DNA from: Flammeovirga sp. SJP92
GTDB taxonomy: Bacteria; Bacteroidota; Bacteroidia; Cytophagales; Flammeovirgaceae
NCBI RefSeq assembly: GCF_001583495.1
Contig: NZ_LQAQ01000111.1
Span: 124,001 to 188,000 of the forward strand
Length of the DNA stretch: 64,000 nt
Reading direction: 5' to 3'
Under the pieces are notes generated by a model. That model saw only the letters and a program-made list of their open reading frames with translations, ran no database searches and was not told the origin of the DNA. Positions 2,834 through 15,114 of the stretch are shown in pieces. Made by a program: the position numbers and the translations under genes. How positions within the stretch are numbered: the first letter of the stretch is position 1; each line of letters starts with the position of its first letter.

Positions 2834-3868
2834 CTATCTCGCTAATCTTTTTCTTTGTGGCTGGTATTTTGGTTTCTTTTTCGATAGGGCTAATATAACT
2901 GCAAACAGAACTAATTGGATAGGAGCTATGGCCAATTGAGGTCCCATAAACATCCACATTTCATGTTTCATATTGGTGTAATGTTGCCAGTTCCACCATG
3001 ATTTTGTAAACTCAGAACCTGCAAACCAAACAGGAATAAATAAGAAAATGCTGAGTAAAATAACTTGTTTCTTTTTCAATGCATTACGCCCCATATTTGG
3101 GATGAAGCTCAATGCACCTCCTACACTAATGGTAATCATTAACGCACTAAAAGCAAGTACGTAATAAATCCAGGAGAAGTCCATGCCGTATTTCATCCAT
3201 AATGTATTTGAAACTTTAAGGATACTATGCATATTTTCTAAAGCAATTTTTGTCAAAAGCGTCATTACCATCAGAAGAATGCCTATATAAATAAAGGCAT
3301 TTTGGATACTTGGCATCTTGAAAAGTTCTCCTAACAATCTTAGAGGTGCATTAAGCAAACGGAATAATATTGTCTTCAATTTGAAACCAATATTACTGCT
3401 ACCTTGAAAAGGAGGTGGAGAAGGAAGTTTATTGTTTTTTCGTTCACCTATTCTATCATTCAATACTTCATGATAAGCATTTTTATCTCCATCAGTGGTC
3501 CAAACATATTTGGCTAATGTGGCACTTGCATAGGAAAAACCTTGATCAATGGCACCTTGAAAAACACTTTCTGGGACACCTTTTTTCTTGCACTCTACAA
3601 TCATATACGGTTGATACCCTTCCACATCATTGTAGGTAATTATATCTGCTTCTTTAGTCGCTGAACCCATTTTTACTGGTACACAAACCCTTACATTTTC
3701 AGCAGGATATCCATGTTCATAAATCAATGAAAGATAAGTTTGAAGTTGAACTTGCTCTTCTGGATTGTTCAATGATCTTGTTTTTGTATGGGGCAAATAG
3801 GTGACATCATTCGTTTTATTGTTGATAAAAACGACTCTGTCTTTTTTTGCTTTAGACAGCCACTTCAT
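2834..3868 (-). CDS. HsdR_N-type nuclease domain fused to a membrane anchor
   Basis: Residues about 30-130 look like the N-terminal nuclease domain of type I restriction R subunits (HSDR_N_2, PD-(D/E)xK fold). They have an upstream Glu near 37-38, Asp75 in EADIITYN, and Glu92-x-Lys94 in IVECKKKG, followed by a Gln/Tyr helix (QGAIDQGFSYA). There is no helicase or translocase part. Instead, from about residue 165 to 330 there are about four hydrophobic segments and then a very basic tail (KKKPKYQPQRKRLAR). The protein is therefore predicted to hold a nuclease-like domain at the cytoplasmic face of the inner membrane. No hsdM or hsdS is next to it. The fold assignment is by motif only; the catalytic set looks intact. 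Confidence 0.65.
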   Translation of the reverse strand: MKWLSKAKKDRVVFINNKTNDVTYLPHTKTRSLNNPEEQVQLQTYLSLIYEHGYPAENVRVCVPVKMGSATKEADIITYNDVEGYQPYMIVECKKKGVPESVFQGAIDQGFSYASATLAKYVWTTDGDKNAYHEVLNDRIGERKNNKLPSPPPFQGSSNIGFKLKTILFRLLNAPLRLLGELFKMPSIQNAFIYIGILLMVMTLLTKIALENMHSILKVSNTLWMKYGMDFSWIYYVLAFSALMITISVGGALSFIPNMGRNALKKKQVILLSIFLFIPVWFAGSEFTKSWWNWQHYTNMKHEMWMFMGPQLAIAPIQLVLFAVILALSKKKPKYQPQRKRLAR

Positions 3869-5359: not shown

Positions 5360-5551
5360 ATGAAAAACTTAAACCTAATCGTATTGAGCTTATTTTCAAT
5401 ATTCAGTTGCGATCCAGAGAGTTATTGCAACAAAGAGACAGAAGATTCAGTAAGATGTAACTCTTGTGCTCATGTAATCAATTCCAAATGCCCATACGGT
5501 ACTAGTCAACATCATTCATCCTGTTTTTATTATCCAAAAGAAGAGGATTGA
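5360..5551 (+). CDS. Small cysteine-rich predicted lipoprotein
   Basis: This 63-residue ORF starts with a short signal and lipobox-like end (LFSIFSC, Cys17). The mature part has five further Cys (23, 33, 36, 44, 55), including a CxxC and a GTSQHHSSC stretch that could bind a metal or form disulfides. It ends just before a strong bidirectional terminator, which supports a real transcript. No family is recognised, and a chance ORF cannot be excluded. Confidence 0.5.
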   Translation: MKNLNLIVLSLFSIFSCDPESYCNKETEDSVRCNSCAHVINSKCPYGTSQHHSSCFYYPKEED

Positions 5552-5559
5552 TTGTCATA

Positions 5560-5630
5560 AAAAAATAACCCTCTATTTGACACCGTATAGAAAATAGTTT
5601 CTTTATAGTGTCAAATAGAGGGTTTTCTTT
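5560..5630. terminator. Long bidirectional terminator hairpin
   Basis: A perfect 17-bp stem pairs 5567-5583 (AACCCTCTATTTGACAC) with 5608-5624. An A run lies on the left and a T-rich run on the right, and the 24-nt loop can fold further. It separates the small lipoprotein from the convergent LRR gene. Confidence 0.85.
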
Positions 5631-5644
5631 TGAATTTAGATCTA

Positions 5645-8242
5645 TTAGTAGAAATCAACCGTTACATTCGGCATGCTATTTTTGAAAGCATCTACTTTTT
5701 TCTGATTCAATTTCGTTTTGTAACATTTCAAACTCTTAAGTTTTGGAAGGTCAACCAATGGCTTTAAGTTATTAACGCTAGTATTATAACATTCAAAAGC
5801 GGTTAATTCCTTCATGTTAGAAACGTAAGAGATGTTTTTTACTTTCACAATACCTGAAACTTTAAGTTTCTGAAGCTGGTTTAAACCACCTAAAGCATCA
5901 AACTTAGTAACAATAGTGTTAGAAATATTGAGTTCCTTGATACCTTTTAAACTGGCAATAGGAGTAATATCTGAAACCGGGGTATTGTCACAAGAAAGTT
6001 TCTCTAATGTTGAGATATTTTTGATAGGGTTAAGATCTGTGATTCTCGTGAAAGAGATATCCAACGCTTTCAATTTATATAACATCGTCAACGGAGAAAG
6101 ATCTCTGATTGCTTTGTGATTACTTAAATCAATTTCTTCAATAATATTGATTTTATGTAACTCGTACTTTGTTGGAACATCACCTTTGATCTTTGCTTGT
6201 TGATCAAAAACTTTTTGCCATTCAGTATTTAAGCCAAACCACCAAGTTGTCAATTTCTCTGTTCTGAAGATAATTTGAGCAGTACTTTCTTTTGAGAAGT
6301 TGATTACTGTAGCATCACTACATTGTGTATGATCTGCTTCCAATGTCTTCAATGAAGTCAATTTTCTCAAAGCTGAAATTGAGCTTACAGGTGTGTCATT
6401 GATTTTTAATCGAGAAAGTTTAGGTAAGTCCGCTAAGGGATCTAAGTCCGTAACTTTCGTTTTGTCTAATGTCACACGTTTTAATAATTTCAATTCAGCT
6501 AACACTTCAACAGAGTTTACATTCGTATTAGAAACATTAAGCACTGATAAATTAGGGCAGTTTTTTAATGGATCTAAAGAAGTGATACCAGTATTTGAAG
6601 CGTTTAATTTCTCTAAGTTGACCAAGAAACTTAATGGCTCAAGGTTTTGAATGCCATTGGTTGTTTCAAGGTTGATTTCCTTGATATTAGCAAGTTGTTG
6701 TAATTGCTCCTTTTCAGGGTTGCCTGATAAACCTGCGTGTGTCAATAATACTTTCTTCCATACTTCTGACATGCTATTCCACCATTCTTTTAATTGGTTA
6801 GAACCATAAATCACTAAAGTGTTAGGGTGCTTGCGCATAAAAGCTTGAGCAATGGAAGTATTAATGCCAGTCTCATCACAATACACTCTGTCCAGATTTT
6901 CAAGGGCATTCAATGGCGAAAGACTACTGATTTGAGTTTTGTCAGCAGATAGTGTTTTCAACGCTTTGGTAGTTGCTAATGAAGACAGGTCACCAACGTT
7001 TGTTTTGTCAATGGTCAATTGTTCCAATTTTGTTAATCCCATTAAGGCATCAATTGAATTGACAGGAGTGTTAGAAATGTCTAATGAACGAAGTGACTTA
7101 CAAGCGTTCAATGCATCAATAGAAGCTATTTGTGTATCATTAGCCCAAACTACTTTTAATTTCTCCAAGTCTTCCACCGCAGAAATATCTGCAATGTTGG
7201 TGTTGAAGCAATATAATTCTTCAAGGTTTTCAAAGTTTTCAACAACTGTCAAATCTTCAATCTGAGTGTCATTGATCATTAGTACCTCAATGTTTGTACA
7301 ATAAATCAGTGGATCTAATGAATTGATACCTGTCATTTCACATTTCAATGACTTCAAGTTTGTCAATGTTCTGATAGGAGAAAGGTCATTCACTCCAGTT
7401 CCAGAAATATTTAATTCCTCAAGGCTTCTCAGCTTACTTAAAGGAGCTAGGTCAATAATTTCGGGATTGAGAGAAACATCTAATTCCGTTTTTTGAAGGA
7501 AGTTTTCCAAATGTTTGAAGATACTTTCATCTAAAGCCACAGTACTGTCGTTTTTAGTGATCATTACAGTGTCAATTACAGAAACAACTTCTCTTAAAGG
7601 GATGTTGTTTTCAAGCGTAATGCCATTACCAACAATTCCTCTCCAGGTGTCATCCAATTTATTCCACCAAAGTGCCATGTCTTCTTTTTGACTTAATTTG
7701 GTAGTGTAAATTGAAGCAATTTTAAGATCAAGCTCTTCAGGGTCAAGGTTGATCTCAACAAAGCGTTCCATTGAATTTTCAAGTGTATCACCACTTACAG
7801 TGATACCATCTAATTTTCTAGTCAATGTAACAGTGAAATAAAGAACGCCTTCATTGGTGACACTATGACTGATATTTTCAATGATAAACTCGAAATTAGC
7901 TTGCTTAAAGAAGAAGTCTACATCTTTCAAATAAGCTTGAGCATCCTTATTGGATACCACTTGACGGTTTGGATCTAAATCGTCTTCAATTTGAGTTTTA
8001 TCTGAAGCAAATACTTTCAGATACGTGTCATTGATGATAATTCCTTTTTCTTGGTTAGTGTAGTCTTCACCTGCAATATCATTGAGCATTCCCTCAAAAT
8101 ACATTACTAAGTCTTTTGCCTCAGATTTGTATTGATTGAGCTTCTCAGCAGGGATTTCATTTTCTTGACCATCTTGAGCATTTACTTGAACAGAAACACC
8201 AAAGAGCAAGAGCATTAGAAAGATAAGATACCCGTTTCGCAT
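5645..8242 (-). CDS. Exported leucine-rich-repeat protein with three WW-helix/LRR modules
   Basis: A signal peptide (ending VNAQ, residue 23) is followed by an N-terminal domain (about 40-185) that shares the LF...KYL pattern of the upstream genes (YLKVF at 74-78, AQAYL at 101-105). The rest is internalin-like 22-residue LRRs of the form LxxLxxLxISxTxIxDLSPL. The repeats fall into three arrays (about 255-480, 515-660 and 700-865). Each array is preceded by a short helical segment opening with two Trp and a third Trp seven residues on (WW at 192-193, 487-488 and 667-668, as in WWNKLDDTW). Such LRRs bind proteins, so a cell-surface or periplasmic recognition role is likely. No C-terminal sorting domain or anchor is visible. 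It is the last gene of the cluster. Confidence 0.85.
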   Translation of the reverse strand: MRNGYLIFLMLLLFGVSVQVNAQDGQENEIPAEKLNQYKSEAKDLVMYFEGMLNDIAGEDYTNQEKGIIINDTYLKVFASDKTQIEDDLDPNRQVVSNKDAQAYLKDVDFFFKQANFEFIIENISHSVTNEGVLYFTVTLTRKLDGITVSGDTLENSMERFVEINLDPEELDLKIASIYTTKLSQKEDMALWWNKLDDTWRGIVGNGITLENNIPLREVVSVIDTVMITKNDSTVALDESIFKHLENFLQKTELDVSLNPEIIDLAPLSKLRSLEELNISGTGVNDLSPIRTLTNLKSLKCEMTGINSLDPLIYCTNIEVLMINDTQIEDLTVVENFENLEELYCFNTNIADISAVEDLEKLKVVWANDTQIASIDALNACKSLRSLDISNTPVNSIDALMGLTKLEQLTIDKTNVGDLSSLATTKALKTLSADKTQISSLSPLNALENLDRVYCDETGINTSIAQAFMRKHPNTLVIYGSNQLKEWWNSMSEVWKKVLLTHAGLSGNPEKEQLQQLANIKEINLETTNGIQNLEPLSFLVNLEKLNASNTGITSLDPLKNCPNLSVLNVSNTNVNSVEVLAELKLLKRVTLDKTKVTDLDPLADLPKLSRLKINDTPVSSISALRKLTSLKTLEADHTQCSDATVINFSKESTAQIIFRTEKLTTWWFGLNTEWQKVFDQQAKIKGDVPTKYELHKINIIEEIDLSNHKAIRDLSPLTMLYKLKALDISFTRITDLNPIKNISTLEKLSCDNTPVSDITPIASLKGIKELNISNTIVTKFDALGGLNQLQKLKVSGIVKVKNISYVSNMKELTAFECYNTSVNNLKPLVDLPKLKSLKCYKTKLNQKKVDAFKNSMPNVTVDFY

Positions 8243-8296
8243 CTTTAATTATGGTTTACTTACTAAAAATCAACATTTAAATAGTTCAGATATAGA

Positions 8297-9121
8297 TTAA
8301 TTCTTGTGAAGGACGTACCTTCTCATGGTTTCTATATCTTCTTCTTTCAGTGGCATTAATCCAGAAATCAACCATCCAGAGTTGTATGAATCTCTTTCAA
8401 ATTTTTCAACTGTAAAATACCAACCGTGAATTTGGAATACGTGAAACTTGATACTCTCAACAGTTACAAATTTCAAGTCGCCCGTTTTTATTAAATAGAA
8501 AAGAATACTAGTATAATCTACTTCATATCCTTTTGAAGCATAATCTTGAATTTCTTTTTTGTCACCAAAAGCTCTATGCAAATTCATAAAGTCAATTTCG
8601 TGACTCATTGGGTGAAGGAAGTTTCTTTTTGGATCGTTATCGCTAAATAGCTCATTCCAGTTTTGAGAATAAACATCAGAAATAGCCCACTTAAAACCCA
8701 AACTATCTAGTTCCTTGACCATATACAAAGTAACGTTCACATTTCGTCCATTGTATAAAAATCTAGTATTTACTTCTGCAAAATACTCACCATTATATTT
8801 TTCGATGTATTTGGGGGACTTAGAATCAGTTACATCAGTAATGAAATCATCTTTCATCTGACGTGAAATACCCGTGTTTTGTCCATCAAATAAAATCTCC
8901 ATATAATTTTTTCTGTATGTGTTTTCTCTAAACTTATAAGAGCCTGTAGGGTAGGGTTGTCCGTTTTTGTCTTCTTCGTTGTTGAATCGTTTTATAAATT
9001 GCGTAAACTGTTTTGTTTCCGCATATAATTTGGACTCATCCCCCTTATAATTCCCTATAGTTTGGGAAAAACTCATTTGACAGCAAACGAGTAAAAAAAA
9101 TAGTGTAAATAACTTTCTCAT
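8297..9121 (-). CDS. Exported protein of unknown function, LF-KYL domain cluster
   Basis: The signal peptide ends at SFSQ (residue 20). No known family is recognised. Residues 40-170 resemble the domain shared by its neighbours: a helix ending in EILF (75-78), then SPKYI at 102-106, then beta strands (VNVTLYMVKELDSLGFKWAISDVY) of an NTF2-like appearance. The C-terminal part (about 170-274) has mixed helices and strands with many aromatic residues. It lies 54 bases upstream of the LRR gene on the same strand and is likely cotranscribed with it. Confidence 0.65.
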   Translation of the reverse strand: MRKLFTLFFLLVCCQMSFSQTIGNYKGDESKLYAETKQFTQFIKRFNNEEDKNGQPYPTGSYKFRENTYRKNYMEILFDGQNTGISRQMKDDFITDVTDSKSPKYIEKYNGEYFAEVNTRFLYNGRNVNVTLYMVKELDSLGFKWAISDVYSQNWNELFSDNDPKRNFLHPMSHEIDFMNLHRAFGDKKEIQDYASKGYEVDYTSILFYLIKTGDLKFVTVESIKFHVFQIHGWYFTVEKFERDSYNSGWLISGLMPLKEEDIETMRRYVLHKN

Positions 9122-9173
9122 GTATATGAATAGAGCTTGATTGCTATGTTATTGTCTAAATACTAGGACAGAA

Positions 9174-9213
9174 GAAAAAGTACAACCTAGAGTTGTTCGT
9201 TTACTTTTGTACT
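9174..9213 (-). terminator. Probable terminator splitting the exported-protein cluster
   Basis: AGTACAA (9179-9185) pairs with TTGTACT (9207-9213), and an inner ACAAC/GTTGT stem can form. On the minus strand the stem is followed by TTTTTCTTC. It lies in the 141-base gap below the three upstream genes, so the cluster may form two transcripts. Confidence 0.5.
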
Positions 9214-9262
9214 GATACTTAACAATATCATACCAACCAAGCTTTATGAATGCTAATTTTTA

Positions 9263-9856
9263 TTAACCTTTTTTCGTTTCTGATACTCTGATGTCACCTA
9301 ATAGTACATCCCAGAAACCAATTTCTCTACCACCAATTTGTGTAGTTTTGCGCTCCACATAAACCGTGATGTCCTTTTTAGTGATGTCTTTGTATACCAA
9401 ACCGTCTTCAGTTACACCTGTAAACTTTTGGTAGATTGTAATCACACCAACGTAACGGCCGTCAGGTTGTTTTTCAAGATCTGAGATATATTGAATATCA
9501 AACCAGTCAATATTGACAGACTTATAGTTCAATTTATTTAAACGCTCTAAATACTTACGAATGCCGAAGTATCTCACTTGTTTCTTACCTAAAGTCGAAA
9601 CACCCATTTGAGCATCTTCCACGAAAAGTTCCAAAGCTCTTTCGATCACTCTGTTTGCTTCAGAAAATGAAGTTTCTTTATCACCAATTTTGCTGATATA
9701 CTTACTCAAATCATGTACTTTCTCAAGTGCTAAAGAGTCAATGGCCACCTTTCTAGCAGGAGGCATCGGAGGCTCTTCTTTTGGAGCATCTTGAGCAAAA
9801 GCTTGAAGTCCAATCAAGCAGAAAAATAGGATACTTAATTTTTTTATAGTATTCAT
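9263..9856 (-). CDS. Exported protein of unknown function, LF-KYL domain cluster
   Basis: The signal peptide ends at AFAQ (residue 22) and is followed by a short Pro-rich linker. A single domain (about 45-190) begins with helices, with ALELF at 74-78 and IRKYL at 99-103. It continues as strands (DIQYISDLEKQPDGRYVGVITIYQKFTG, KDITVYVERKTTQ), resembling an NTF2-like alpha+beta barrel. No catalytic residues can be assigned. The gene starts 2 bases after the stop of the gene above, so translation of the two is probably coupled. Confidence 0.65.
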   Translation of the reverse strand: MNTIKKLSILFFCLIGLQAFAQDAPKEEPPMPPARKVAIDSLALEKVHDLSKYISKIGDKETSFSEANRVIERALELFVEDAQMGVSTLGKKQVRYFGIRKYLERLNKLNYKSVNIDWFDIQYISDLEKQPDGRYVGVITIYQKFTGVTEDGLVYKDITKKDITVYVERKTTQIGGREIGFWDVLLGDIRVSETKKG

Positions 9857-9858
9857 AA

Positions 9859-10233
9859 TTATATGATTTCAATAATTTTTAAACCTGTAATCCGACCTTT
9901 GCGGTCAATGCCTTCAATATCTTTTGCTTTGATAATGATGCCATGATCAGGCATTTTACTCACCCTGATTAAATATTTTCGAGGGCTATAAAACTTATCT
10001 TCCAAATTCGTTCCCATATAATCCACTTCAACTTTTGCCTTCGGAGCAAAAAGACCACTAGCATAATCAATCAGACGTCCAACTTCTTTTGGTGGTGTTT
10101 TTCGATCTGAAATTTCCTCAAATATTTCATTGAGTTTTAAGGCTAGTACTTCTTTTGTGCCACTCTGTGCATAAGAGTAGCTAGAGGTAGAAAATAGAAA
10201 CAAGAAGAATAAAAGATACTGAAGAGATTTCAT
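9859..10233 (-). CDS. Small exported protein of unknown function, LF-KYL domain cluster
   Basis: This 124-residue protein has a signal peptide ending at YAQ (residue 23). The mature part is little more than the shared domain: a helix (ALKLNEIFEEISD), ASGLF at 58-62, a strand (AKVEVDYMG), PRKYL at 84-88 and two further strands. It lies between two related genes with gaps of 3 and 2 bases. It could be the minimal form of the domain and is useful for defining its limits. Confidence 0.6.
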   Translation of the reverse strand: MKSLQYLLFFLFLFSTSSYSYAQSGTKEVLALKLNEIFEEISDRKTPPKEVGRLIDYASGLFAPKAKVEVDYMGTNLEDKFYSPRKYLIRVSKMPDHGIIIKAKDIEGIDRKGRITGLKIIEII

Positions 10234-10236
10234 GGA

Positions 10237-10890
10237 TTATCTTTTCTTTAAAATTAATTCAGTGATTTTGCCGTTAGCATCCTTCTTAAATTCTTTGATT
10301 TGATCAGGATTACGCTTAACGTCTTTAAGGTATTCTAAATACTTTTGAGCAGTTGTAGGTTTGTCATAATCGACAATATCACCATCATTATAAATTTCAA
10401 TCAATACAGGAACATCTGGAGAAGAGAACATTGATAAAGCTTCAGTGATCATTAAATTACCTTCTTGCGAAGAGCCAGATCCAGCAATATTATCCAATAA
10501 ATAGTAAATGTCTCTTTTCTGCGCTTCTTCTACTACTGTTTTTTGAGCTTCCTCTTTCGCTTTTTGCTCTTCCGCTAACTTTTTTTCTAAAGCTTCACGA
10601 GACATTTGAAGATTTTTCTCCACCTGTCCAATTAATTCCTTTACTTCAGCATCCTCTAAGTTGTAAGATTTAATTTCTTCAAGACGAGCTTCATCGGCAG
10701 CCACTTCATCCAACGAAGTATATTCTTTGCCAACCATTGCTCTTAGGTCAGCCTGTGCTTTGTTTGTTTTGGCTAGTAGTTCTGCTTGAGCTTGTTCCTC
10801 AGCAATTTTCTTTTGGCTTTTACATCCTGTAAAAGAAATAGACACAATCAATGCCATGATTAAGGCTGTAAAAATTGATGTTTTGTTCAT
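10237..10890 (-). CDS. Lipoprotein with coiled coil and LF-KYL domain
   Basis: The lipobox ends at Cys23 (SFTGC). Residues about 25-125 form a long charged helix or coiled coil (KIAEEQAQAELLAKTNKAQ, REALEKKLAEEQKAKEEAQ). The C-terminal 90 residues carry the shared domain with ALSMF (151-155) and AQKYL (181-185), then two strands. The lead-in NIAGSGSSQEGN resembles the LRR protein's DIAGEDYTNQEKG. It is the first gene of the cluster, and a membrane-tethered coiled coil suggests a scaffold role (inference). Confidence 0.65.
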   Translation of the reverse strand: MNKTSIFTALIMALIVSISFTGCKSQKKIAEEQAQAELLAKTNKAQADLRAMVGKEYTSLDEVAADEARLEEIKSYNLEDAEVKELIGQVEKNLQMSREALEKKLAEEQKAKEEAQKTVVEEAQKRDIYYLLDNIAGSGSSQEGNLMITEALSMFSSPDVPVLIEIYNDGDIVDYDKPTTAQKYLEYLKDVKRNPDQIKEFKKDANGKITELILKKR

Positions 10891-11263: not shown

Positions 11264-12469
11264 ATGAAAAAACTATTAATTCTGACTTTTATTTTATTGT
11301 CATGCAAACTATTTGCTCAAAAAGAGATCAAAGAATACATCCGGACGGATGCTTGTGAAATCAAATCGATGGATATCAATCATCAAGACAATACGGATTT
11401 GAAAGCAATCAAATCAGCAATAGGTGATTCAAAGATTGTTTTATTAGGGGAACAAGATCATGGTGATGCACCTACCTTTCTAATGAAGGCGAGGCTTGTG
11501 AAATACTTGCATGAAGAGTGTGGGTTTGATGTTATCGCTTTTGAAAGTAACTTTTATGATTTACAAGGAGCTTTTGAAAGAGACTCCCTAAATTTTGAAG
11601 ATGCACATAAGGGTATCTTCCCAATTTGGACTCAATGTAGTGAGTGTGATCCACTATTTTCATATTTGGAGAACACATTGAAATCGAAAGATCCACTTTA
11701 TATTTCAGGCTTTGATATGCAGCTTTATTTTAATGAAAATTATAGAAATGAATTTAGAACTTTTTTAAAGGAAAATAACCTTAAAGTTTCAAATGCTGAA
11801 CGATTCTTCAAAGTGTTTGATGTGTTAGTGAAAGATAATAAAGCATATGATTTAGAGGAAGAAGAATTGAGTTTCTATTTCAAAGAACTCGAACAACTTT
11901 ATACTTCTTATCCTAAAAATGATTTTAGGAAGCAAGAATTACATAGCTTGATCGGTCACTCAAAGATGAGAACTGCTTCAAATATTAGAGAAACACTAAA
12001 TATTCGTGATAAGTACATGGCTGATAACTTACTTTGGTTGTCTAATAAGCGTTTTAAGGATGAAAAAATCATAGTGTGGGCGCATAATTTTCATATTGCT
12101 AGAAATACAAGTAAGAAAGTGGTGAGTCTTGGAGGTGAGGTACATAAAGTACTTGGAAGTCAAATTTACAGTTTAGGATTTACTTCATTTAGTGGAAGTA
12201 CAGGCTGGACAAATCAAACAGATGCTCTTCATAATTATGATATAAAAGAGCCTCATAGAAGCAGTATTGAAAACGATTTTAAAGCTCTAGGTTACAAACA
12301 AGCTTTCCTTGATTTTAGATCATATTCTGGTAAGAAAAAAAACTTCAGCATGAAAGGACTTAGACATAGGGTAGAAGTCAGAGATTGGATGAATATACTT
12401 GACGGAGTAATTTATATTGAGGAAATGAAGCCCTGTACAAAGAAAGAAGGTTCCTTGAAAACACAATAG
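11264..12469 (+). CDS. Exported erythromycin-esterase-family protein
   Basis: The sequence matches the erythromycin esterase (EreA/B) family. It has LLGEQDHGD with Glu63 and His66, the fingerprint NIRDKYMADNLLWL (246-259), and VWAHNFHIA with His274 and His277. These residues are used for hydrolysis of an ester in the characterised enzymes. Unlike the resistance enzymes, this one has a signal peptide ending at FAQ (residue 19), or an alternative lipobox at Cys14. It therefore acts outside the cytoplasm and probably on another substrate. Drug resistance should not be assumed. A terminator follows directly. Confidence 0.85.
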   Translation: MKKLLILTFILLSCKLFAQKEIKEYIRTDACEIKSMDINHQDNTDLKAIKSAIGDSKIVLLGEQDHGDAPTFLMKARLVKYLHEECGFDVIAFESNFYDLQGAFERDSLNFEDAHKGIFPIWTQCSECDPLFSYLENTLKSKDPLYISGFDMQLYFNENYRNEFRTFLKENNLKVSNAERFFKVFDVLVKDNKAYDLEEEELSFYFKELEQLYTSYPKNDFRKQELHSLIGHSKMRTASNIRETLNIRDKYMADNLLWLSNKRFKDEKIIVWAHNFHIARNTSKKVVSLGGEVHKVLGSQIYSLGFTSFSGSTGWTNQTDALHNYDIKEPHRSSIENDFKALGYKQAFLDFRSYSGKKKNFSMKGLRHRVEVRDWMNILDGVIYIEEMKPCTKKEGSLKTQ

Positions 12470-12648: not shown

Positions 12649-15114
12649 ATGTTTTTTTGTGTAAACACAATGAAGAACACTACTGAAGAAGCAAACAACT
12701 GTATAGAATTACTCGGCCAAAGTTATGATGAGTATAACGAGTATAATGAACATTACACTCAATATTTGTCACATGTCATAGTTGATATGGATAAGTTTAA
12801 TTTGTCATTTAATGAAATATGTGAAATTCTATCCACTCTAGAAGAATTAAGTAGTTTAACCATTAATTCAGCCCATGAGTTTCCATTAAATCTTTTGATT
12901 GATGATAGTATACTACAACTAACAGGTTTAAGTGAGTTAAATGTCTCATTGAATTGCCCTAATAGTACAATAATACTCAACAACTTTGATGATGAAAATC
13001 TAAAGCTAGATAAGCTAAACTTAGAAGCTGATATTATTCTCCTGGAAACGGAAAAGTTTAATTGTCAAGAAATATTTATTTCATCAAACCAACAAACAAA
13101 ATTTAATTCAAAAGTTAGTTTTAATAATTTACTCACATTTGAAATATATGGTAAAGTTGAAAGTTTGCCAGCTGATTTATTTTTATCTGAGACTCTTCAA
13201 AAAGTGACATTGAATAAGCTGACTACCTGTAAACTTCCTATTAAAGCAAGTTTGCTAAATTTAGAGGAGTTTTATATTTCAGATAGTGCAGTTAATGAGC
13301 TTCCGAATAAGATTTTCAAATCCAGGGGAATTAGACGCCTTAAGATAGATAACATTCCAATTCAAAATCTTGAACATTGTTTTGAGGAAGGGGTGAAGTA
13401 TAATCTAGATTATTTAGTAATATGTAATACTAATATTACTATCTTGCCCAAGCCAATTTTAGAGAATAATAAAAATTTAAGGTATCTTGACTTAGAGAAT
13501 AACAAATTAATTTCATTTCCTTCAATCCTTGTTAATAATCAAAGCTTTTCAGAACTCAATGCCAGTAATAATTCATTCACTGTATTAGAAGAACCATTTA
13601 TTGAAAATGATGTTTTAGAAAATCTAAATATTAGAGGTAATTCTTTCGTGAAATTGGATGGTAGCTTTTCACAATTAAGAAAAATTTCATTTTTAGATAT
13701 AAGGTCCTCAGATCTTAAAGATCTAACAGGTATCCATCAATTAAAATCGTTAAAATCACTCAATATCAACTTTGATGAAATAGAGATAGGCTTTAATGAT
13801 TTATTCAAACTAAGGAAATTGAAATGGCTGAAAACATATCCAATTGGTAGTGTAGTTTCTTCACCATTAAATGATGCTCAAAAGTTAAGGTTAATACACC
13901 TTCTTTTGAATAATAGCCCAATTGATACATATACGAAATATGAATTGCTATTAATGCTATGTATATCTAATGGACGTTTAAATCAAGAGGCAAATCAAGA
14001 ACTTCATAATAGAAGGGTTGAAAATACTTCAATTGACCCTCAGTCTAAATTTTTTCTTTTGGGAAAATTCTCAGAAAATAAAACTATTATAAAAGAAAAA
14101 ATAAATACTCTTCCTTTTCAGGTGAAAACAAAATTTGATGAGGAGGTGACACATTTAGTAGTTGGCAAAACTCCAAAAGAGGTTATTAAAATTCCAGAGC
14201 AGTTAATCAATAGATGTATTATGATTGACGAAAGACAGTTGACCGAGTTGAAAGAGACTGCTTCGCCTTCTTTCTTAATGGAAGAGGATAAAGATATGAT
14301 AGAAAATTTAAATAATTTTTTAGATAGTGATGACCCAAATAATTTAGATCTAGCTATAGAGCTGATGAATACTGGAGGAATTCCTCAAGTGCTTTTCGAG
14401 AAAGTATTTTACATAATGCACTCAAAGTTAGCTTACAAAAAACTTCTACCTCTATTGGAGAAATATACACCAGATGACTATAGAAAGGCTCTCTCATTCA
14501 AATTAAGGTCTAATAAGATTTTCACCGCTAGAAAGGGCTGTAAAGAGATAATCAATAAATTTGAGTTTGTATTGACAGAACATCAGATAGCAACAATGCT
14601 TACATATCATTACAAGAAATATAATTTTGGTTTGGATTCAATTCTGTCAATCGCACCACTTTGTTCAGACCTTCGAAAGGAGATGTACAGTAGTATAGGA
14701 CTTTTTGAAACTGACGTAATCAGATGGCATGATATCAGAAAACTTGAACATAAAAACCTTCCTTTTCCAAAAGATTTACCCTATTTCCATAAGGTGAGAA
14801 GTTTTATTTTTAAACCAAATAACCCAAAGAAGTTTTACCTAAATAACAATGATCTCGAGTTATTTCTAAATTTAGAAGAATTGGTATTAAGCAAGTTGAG
14901 TATGTTTGAATTCAGGTTAAACGATAAGTCTGTCAAAGCCTTATCCAATTTGAACAAACTTGATTTAAGTAAAAACAATTTAACGAATGAAAACTTCTGT
15001 TACGATGTAAAACACCTCAAATCTTTAAAGGTCTTAGACCTAAGAGGAAATAAAATTACAATAATCCCCGAAGATGTAAGAGAAGCATTACAGGGGTGTG
15101 AGATACTTTTGTAA
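12649..15114 (+). CDS. Large cytosolic LRR protein with BRCT-like insert
   Basis: No signal peptide is present; Met8 (12670) is an equally good start. Residues about 60-400 form irregular LRRs (LRYLDLENNKLISFP, FLDIRSSDLKDL). Residues about 465-535 look like a BRCT domain: FFLLGKFSENK, then VTHLVVGKTPKE, then IMIDERQLTEL. Residues about 545-665 are helical, with an armadillo-like pattern (DDPNNLDLAIELMNTGGIPQ). A second short LRR block fills 705-821 (LNKLDLSKNNLTN). This order suggests an intracellular protein-binding scaffold. Any nucleic-acid or damage-response link rests only on the BRCT-like part. Codon use is very AT-rich. Confidence 0.75.
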   Translation: MFFCVNTMKNTTEEANNCIELLGQSYDEYNEYNEHYTQYLSHVIVDMDKFNLSFNEICEILSTLEELSSLTINSAHEFPLNLLIDDSILQLTGLSELNVSLNCPNSTIILNNFDDENLKLDKLNLEADIILLETEKFNCQEIFISSNQQTKFNSKVSFNNLLTFEIYGKVESLPADLFLSETLQKVTLNKLTTCKLPIKASLLNLEEFYISDSAVNELPNKIFKSRGIRRLKIDNIPIQNLEHCFEEGVKYNLDYLVICNTNITILPKPILENNKNLRYLDLENNKLISFPSILVNNQSFSELNASNNSFTVLEEPFIENDVLENLNIRGNSFVKLDGSFSQLRKISFLDIRSSDLKDLTGIHQLKSLKSLNINFDEIEIGFNDLFKLRKLKWLKTYPIGSVVSSPLNDAQKLRLIHLLLNNSPIDTYTKYELLLMLCISNGRLNQEANQELHNRRVENTSIDPQSKFFLLGKFSENKTIIKEKINTLPFQVKTKFDEEVTHLVVGKTPKEVIKIPEQLINRCIMIDERQLTELKETASPSFLMEEDKDMIENLNNFLDSDDPNNLDLAIELMNTGGIPQVLFEKVFYIMHSKLAYKKLLPLLEKYTPDDYRKALSFKLRSNKIFTARKGCKEIINKFEFVLTEHQIATMLTYHYKKYNFGLDSILSIAPLCSDLRKEMYSSIGLFETDVIRWHDIRKLEHKNLPFPKDLPYFHKVRSFIFKPNNPKKFYLNNNDLELFLNLEELVLSKLSMFEFRLNDKSVKALSNLNKLDLSKNNLTNENFCYDVKHLKSLKVLDLRGNKITIIPEDVREALQGCEILL

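Follow-up and report, generated by a model that had tools for sequence, protein, structure and literature searches.

What do five consecutive genes for exported proteins in Flammeovirga sp. SJP92 (Bacteroidota; Cytophagales) do, and do they act together? The genes lie on the minus strand of a 64,000-nucleotide stretch (assembly GCF_001583495.1, contig NZ_LQAQ01000111.1, positions 124,001 to 188,000), hereafter the window, from whose first letter positions are counted. We refer to their products by length, in gene order, as p217, p124, p197, p274 and LRR865, the last of which carries leucine-rich repeats (LRRs). The original prediction, made from the letters alone, held that all five share one degenerate domain and form a locally duplicated family, perhaps a periplasmic or surface complex. 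Our analysis points to a core of four genes, p217-p197-p274-LRR, to which p124 adds a truncated extra copy. The four exported proteins probably form a cell-envelope complex, and we give a probability of roughly 0.55 to a specific form of it: a periplasm-facing complex of four subunits with p217 as anchor, p197 as hub, p274 as partner and the LRR solenoid as binding arm.

All five genes were confirmed among the open reading frames (ORFs) of the window at the coordinates in Table 1. They follow one another at intervals of 3, 2, 141 and 54 bases, and a strong hairpin terminator closes the run. The Bacteroidetes-type box TAnnTTTG was seen neither upstream of the operon nor in its gaps.

Every motif that had been quoted for the shared domain, an LF- or VF-type pair followed by a KYL- or AYL-type triplet, is present in the five genes. 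A regular expression written from this motif ([LVIM]F, 17-26 residues, [KA]Y[LI]) matches four of the five locus proteins, compared with 2 of the 51 further ORFs of at least 100 amino acids picked in the window. The protein that escapes is p217, whose motif spacing is 27 by hand count, and shuffled single proteins match in 1.1-4.9% of cases. Profile comparisons were made with signal peptides removed. Before diverged relatives were added, p197 matched p124 at 95.6% and the C-terminus of p217 at 94.7%; the match to the N-terminus of LRR865 (the N-domain) was initially weak (22.7%, E 9e-4), with an alignment of nearly full length. With the p197 family widened, hhalign gave 97.1% for the N-domain (E 7e-11, 155 columns), 96.0% for the p217 C-terminus (E 5e-9) and 95.0% for p124 (E 4e-8). 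Column-shuffled controls, 20 per pair, reached at most 2.6%, 2.4% and 0.3%, respectively. Pairs that leave out p197 match weakly (12% for p217 C-terminus and p124, 2% for the N-domain with either), so p197 is the bridge that links the family. Judged by these profiles, p197, p124, the p217 C-terminus and the LRR865 N-terminus are one homologous domain. The lead-in segments reported as matching in two members fall in the same loop of both alignments to p197.

The fifth protein fares differently. When the p274 profile is compared with the other members, it scores 0.2-0.6%, no better than its own shuffles (up to 1.5% and 3.3%), and p274 was therefore rejected on sequence as a fifth copy; the predicted common domain stands for four proteins and is not supported for this one. 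Its KYI motif sits in a coil ahead of a strand, not in a helix. AlphaFold predictions cover p197 and p274, and a Foldseek search with the p274 model returned 607 matches up to E 10, none of them at E 0.001 or below; the predicted fold gives weak support to membership. A second look at the fold used a list of families, and p274 may belong to one outside that list. What marks the protein is a P-x-S-H-E motif, in which P171 and H174 are invariant and S173 and E175 occur in at least 90% of 37 sequences.

The predicted structure of p197 is an NTF2-like cone of the order alpha-alpha-beta-beta-alpha-beta-beta-beta-beta, which would place the protein in the NTF2-like superfamily together with ketosteroid isomerase, LinA, the CaMKII hub and exported DUF3828, DUF3887 and DUF4878 proteins. 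The N-domain appears to belong there as well, by homology to p197 over the domain. The p217 C-terminus and p124 align to p197 over 86-87 columns, and both chains stop before its last two strands (residues 154-174 and 177-193). We regard these two as truncated relatives rather than full members of the superfamily, from which the missing strands set them apart; the available part of PMC3924330, which treats exported NTF2-like domains, describes no such gene set. NTF2-like DUF4348 proteins of Bacteroides (3sbu, 4mjf) are among the closest known systems. Pfam and NCBIfam gave convincing matches for the LRR blocks of LRR865 only (PF12799, E 5.5e-54), and no NTF2-like family of either database is listed for the five proteins at a maximum E of 10, a setting at which the filters of HMMER remove the bulk of hits weaker than about 0.1. 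No convincing PDB relative emerged from profile searches, the best E being 0.38 for p197, 0.062 for p274, 0.022 for the N-domain and 0.0081 for p217, where the hit is to a designed helical protein. PHROGs gave weak matches only, the best (E 0.0041, at the p217 start) to families without known function. The anti-phage models of PADLOC yielded two weak matches on the helical stretch of p217 (E 0.013 and 0.028), and neither plasmids nor phages yielded a p197 relative at E 1e-5.

The lack of a conserved gene neighbourhood in relatives had been named beforehand as grounds for abandoning the prediction, and the neighbourhood proved to be conserved. One p197 scan of genome contigs gave 28 loci: p217 adjoins p197 in all 28, p274 follows in 21 and an LRR gene in 20, one of which (L048) has it as two open frames. 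In these loci p124 appears three times, always in Flammeovirga. The description as five consecutive genes holds for 7 of 9 genomes of that genus, those with p124 at the locus; the core numbers four. Outside Flammeovirga the loci of the scan come from 24 genomes, and every one of these encodes p274 and the LRR protein somewhere, including seven with no p274 and eight with no LRR gene at the scan locus; at least 7 of these assemblies also belong to the sample described next.

Across 194 genomes of the order Cytophagales, p197-like proteins occur in 68, p274 in 62, the N-domain (profile A5) in 54 and p217 in 45. Canonical matches number 45 for p217, 44 for p197, 45 for p274 and 43 for the LRR protein, and together involve 45 genomes, 42 of which have all four members. 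The exceptions are G015 and G016, which lack a canonical LRR protein, and G447, which lacks p197 (completeness 92%, 84% and 89%). Of these 42, 29 preserve all three links between the genes, and 13 show a split of some kind with the four genes still present. Contig breaks may account for some splits, but of eight such loci read, out of 12 retrieved, seven (L129, L130, L131, L133, L134, L135 and L139) have p274 surrounded by other genes, and in L132 it still adjoins the LRR gene. In a sample of 296 genomes of the phylum, the p197 and N-domain profiles each match the same six, all of the same order. Several p197-scan loci carry Bacteroidales or Flavobacteriales titles, with no kinship returned for them.

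These counts bear on the idea of local duplication. The one member that resembles a local duplicate is p124, whereas p217, p197 and LRR865 represent distinct families that stay together across 20 genera. That the locus loosely gathers duplicated exported proteins with no shared task is scarcely credible: p124 does look like a recent truncated duplicate, and N-domain paralogs are numerous in G011, G015 and G016 (6-7 matches each), but 42 of 45 carriers keep all four genes, also when these are unlinked, as do all 24 genomes of the p197 scan. What were unannotated exported genes become one testable complex of four families, which apart from the LRRs have no convincing match in Pfam, NCBIfam, PHROGs or PADLOC and are retained together in 42 of 45 carriers.

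How might such a complex be built? The predicted lipoprotein is p217, whose lipobox cysteine, Cys23, is invariant in 38 aligned sequences. As had been proposed, its charged A/E/K-rich stretch looks like a coiled coil. Acidic residues after the lipoprotein cysteine mark surface export in some Bacteroidota. Because p217 has none after Cys23, it most likely faces the periplasm. It would be an outer-membrane lipoprotein whose helical stalk bears a short NTF2-like domain and anchors the complex. The hub would be p197, which has the whole NTF2-like domain and is under the strongest constraint of the subunits: outside Flammeovirga its identity to the window protein is 58-72% (30% in one diverged row, L028), compared with 32-47% for p274 (22-29% in four diverged rows), 29-53% for p217 and 28-37% for LRR865. 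LRR865 would dock through its own NTF2-like N-domain and extend its long solenoid as an arm for a client or ligand, with p274 as a regular partner.

Several points weigh against this proposal. It leaves p274 unaccounted for, and p217 and p124, which lack the last two strands, may fold unlike p197. No correction for common ancestry was applied to the co-occurrence counts, and the thresholds between canonical and diverged matches were chosen after the scores had been seen, with a small gap for p274 (1.6e-95 versus 6e-87). Strands b1, b5 and b6 of p197 show conservation on either alternate face, and b3 and b4 mainly on one; such constraint would suit a hub with multiple partners, but it might also suit an enzyme. 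Many NTF2-like domains act as enzymes or form ligand pockets, and a hub is not the sole reading of p197.

It is indeed conceivable, if rather unlikely, that p197 works in the periplasm as an NTF2-like enzyme or as a binder of small molecules, with p217, p274 and the LRR protein serving to hold, regulate or supply it. Many of its solved matches are pocket enzymes (LinA, ketosteroid isomerase, dehydratases), invariant polar residues alternate on strand b5 (Y155, D157, T159 and K161), and exported NTF2-like DUF4878 domains have a suggested role in extracellular ligand recognition (PMC3924330). However, no catalytic set was recognised in p197, and reuse of the domain in four proteins, two of them truncated, would suit an assembly better than a lone pocket.

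The four-subunit complex also gains from what follows the N-domain in relatives. We scanned 19 N-domain proteins from hand-chosen neighbourhoods, so that the counts are not frequencies. The N-domain precedes TPR arrays in nine (L094, L097, L099, L103, L104, L112, L141, L153 and L156), outer-membrane barrels in four (L142, L143, L149 and L154) and fn3 or Kre9-type immunoglobulin-like (Ig-like) domains in two (L145 over cut-off, L109 just under both cut-offs), and four show no clear C-terminal domain (L096, L100, L101 and L144). Since the N-domain stays constant while the rest is exchanged, we infer a periplasmic assembly that is anchored and carries a binding arm open to exchange. This docking domain, for which Pfam gave no match in any protein scanned, would point to partners for the TPR, Ig-like and barrel proteins that these bacteria also have.

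Where the complex lies had been left open between periplasm and surface. A surface adhesion or recognition complex, with the LRR protein facing outward like an internalin, would agree with the large LRR array, correctly predicted as a fusion in one member, and with partial matches to NCBIfam internalin models. These matches fall far short, the best scoring 171 bits against a cut-off of 1600, and LRR865 shares LRR blocks with internalin-type proteins but differs in its NTF2-like domain in front and in the WW..W segments between blocks. At the same maximum E and with the same filtering, Pfam lists no type IX sorting domain (Por_Secre_tail, CHU_C) for any of the five proteins, the LRR protein included, and the occurrence of the same N-domain between signal peptide and outer-membrane barrel in four relatives suggests the periplasmic side as its simplest placement. 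We thus consider the surface location distinctly improbable and favour the periplasmic one; LRR865 is possibly the putative recognition subunit.

Diverged p197-like proteins, of about 360-440 amino acids, are encoded ahead of N-domain proteins with other C-terminal parts, and p274 is kept adjacent in some genomes. Two of these loci, L095 and L096, suggested a type VI secretion setting of subtype iii (T6SSiii). TssC occurs in 26 of the 194 genomes, including 3 of 45 with the canonical system compared with 12 of 24 that have only diverged p197-like copies (Fisher p 2.5e-6, uncorrected for phylogeny). A p197-like gene and TssC share a contig in nine genomes, with nearest pairs 3-14 kb apart and further pairs 10-61 kb. 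That the window system is itself an accessory part of such a contractile injection machine is nevertheless very hard to maintain: TssC is rare in canonical genomes and has no match in the genome of the window, which argues that the system is not part of T6SS, and the setting was rejected for the canonical system. As for the diverged genes, the one in L096 lies, by Pfam, near TssC, two TssD, PAAR, VgrG-type, ClpV-type AAA and OmpA-family genes, and others lie near T6SSiii genes in L095, L100/L121, L105, L112/L126 and L123. FHA, PP2C and protein kinase genes stand by the T6SSiii cluster of L121 and a caspase-fold gene in L126; OmpA-family and caspase-fold proteins occur near diverged copies. In L106 (6331-7443) and L111 (8285-9499), a caspase-fold (Peptidase_C14) gene with a signal-like start stands just upstream of the p197-p274 pair.

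A bolder extension of the four-subunit complex is tentative, a possibility well short of probable. It would be an undescribed envelope machine of Cytophagales, an outer-membrane-anchored ring or platform of NTF2-like domains in which strands of neighbours complete the truncated p217 and p124, and in which an LRR, TPR, Ig-like or barrel part is exchanged through the common docking domain, which would also serve in the neighbourhood of T6SSiii, caspase-fold and kinase genes. The T6SSiii membrane complex TssNQOPR (PMC10781749) is comparable as a Bacteroidota envelope complex with a lipoprotein, near whose kind of genes diverged p197 relatives lie. It differs in its components, a lipoprotein and four membrane proteins that are all of another type; the term NTF2 is absent from the main text of that paper, and the canonical genomes are mostly without TssC. 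NTF2-like domains and LRR arrays are known; the four-part set, the docking domain and p274 were not found described in the full-text literature searched, whose coverage leaves out most subscription journals, in agreement with the earlier view that no system with this layout is described.

Table 1. Positions of the five genes and associated features in the window
Feature	Positions	Strand	Description
Terminator	5566..5633	-	Hairpin downstream of LRR865, T-rich on both sides; -34.9 kcal/mol (89-base stretch folded)
LRR865	5645..8242	-	Exported; putative NTF2-like N-domain, then LRR blocks with WW..L...W segments between them
LRR865 N-domain	7673..8173	-	Residues ~24-190; homologous to p197 by profile
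p274	8297..9121	-	Exported partner protein (putative) without clear solved relative; P-x-S-H-E motif
p197	9263..9856	-	Exported; predicted NTF2-like; best-conserved subunit
p124	9859..10233	-	Exported; truncated copy of the p197 domain by profile
p217	10237..10890	-	Lipoprotein (Cys23); charged A/E/K-rich stretch, residues ~24-125; putative truncated NTF2-like C-terminal domain, residues ~124-217

Several neighbours of the operon deserve mention. At 2834-3868 (minus strand) lies a gene for a 344-amino-acid protein with an HSDR_N_2 domain (PF13588) followed by membrane helices apparent by eye; the scanned neighbours are not restriction genes. Upstream of the operon on the opposite strand, 11264-12469 (plus) encodes an Erythromycin-esterase-family protein (PF05139) with a signal-like start. 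A second LRR gene, at 12649-15114 (plus), encodes 821 amino acids with no signal peptide evident by eye and an internal BRCT domain (PF00533, 23.9 bits, cut-off 21.3), a pairing with LRRs that we judge unusual. Finally, a small Cys-rich, lipoprotein-like frame of 63 codons at 5360-5551 (plus) faces LRR865, and a similar-looking frame of 70 amino acids occupies the same place in L031.

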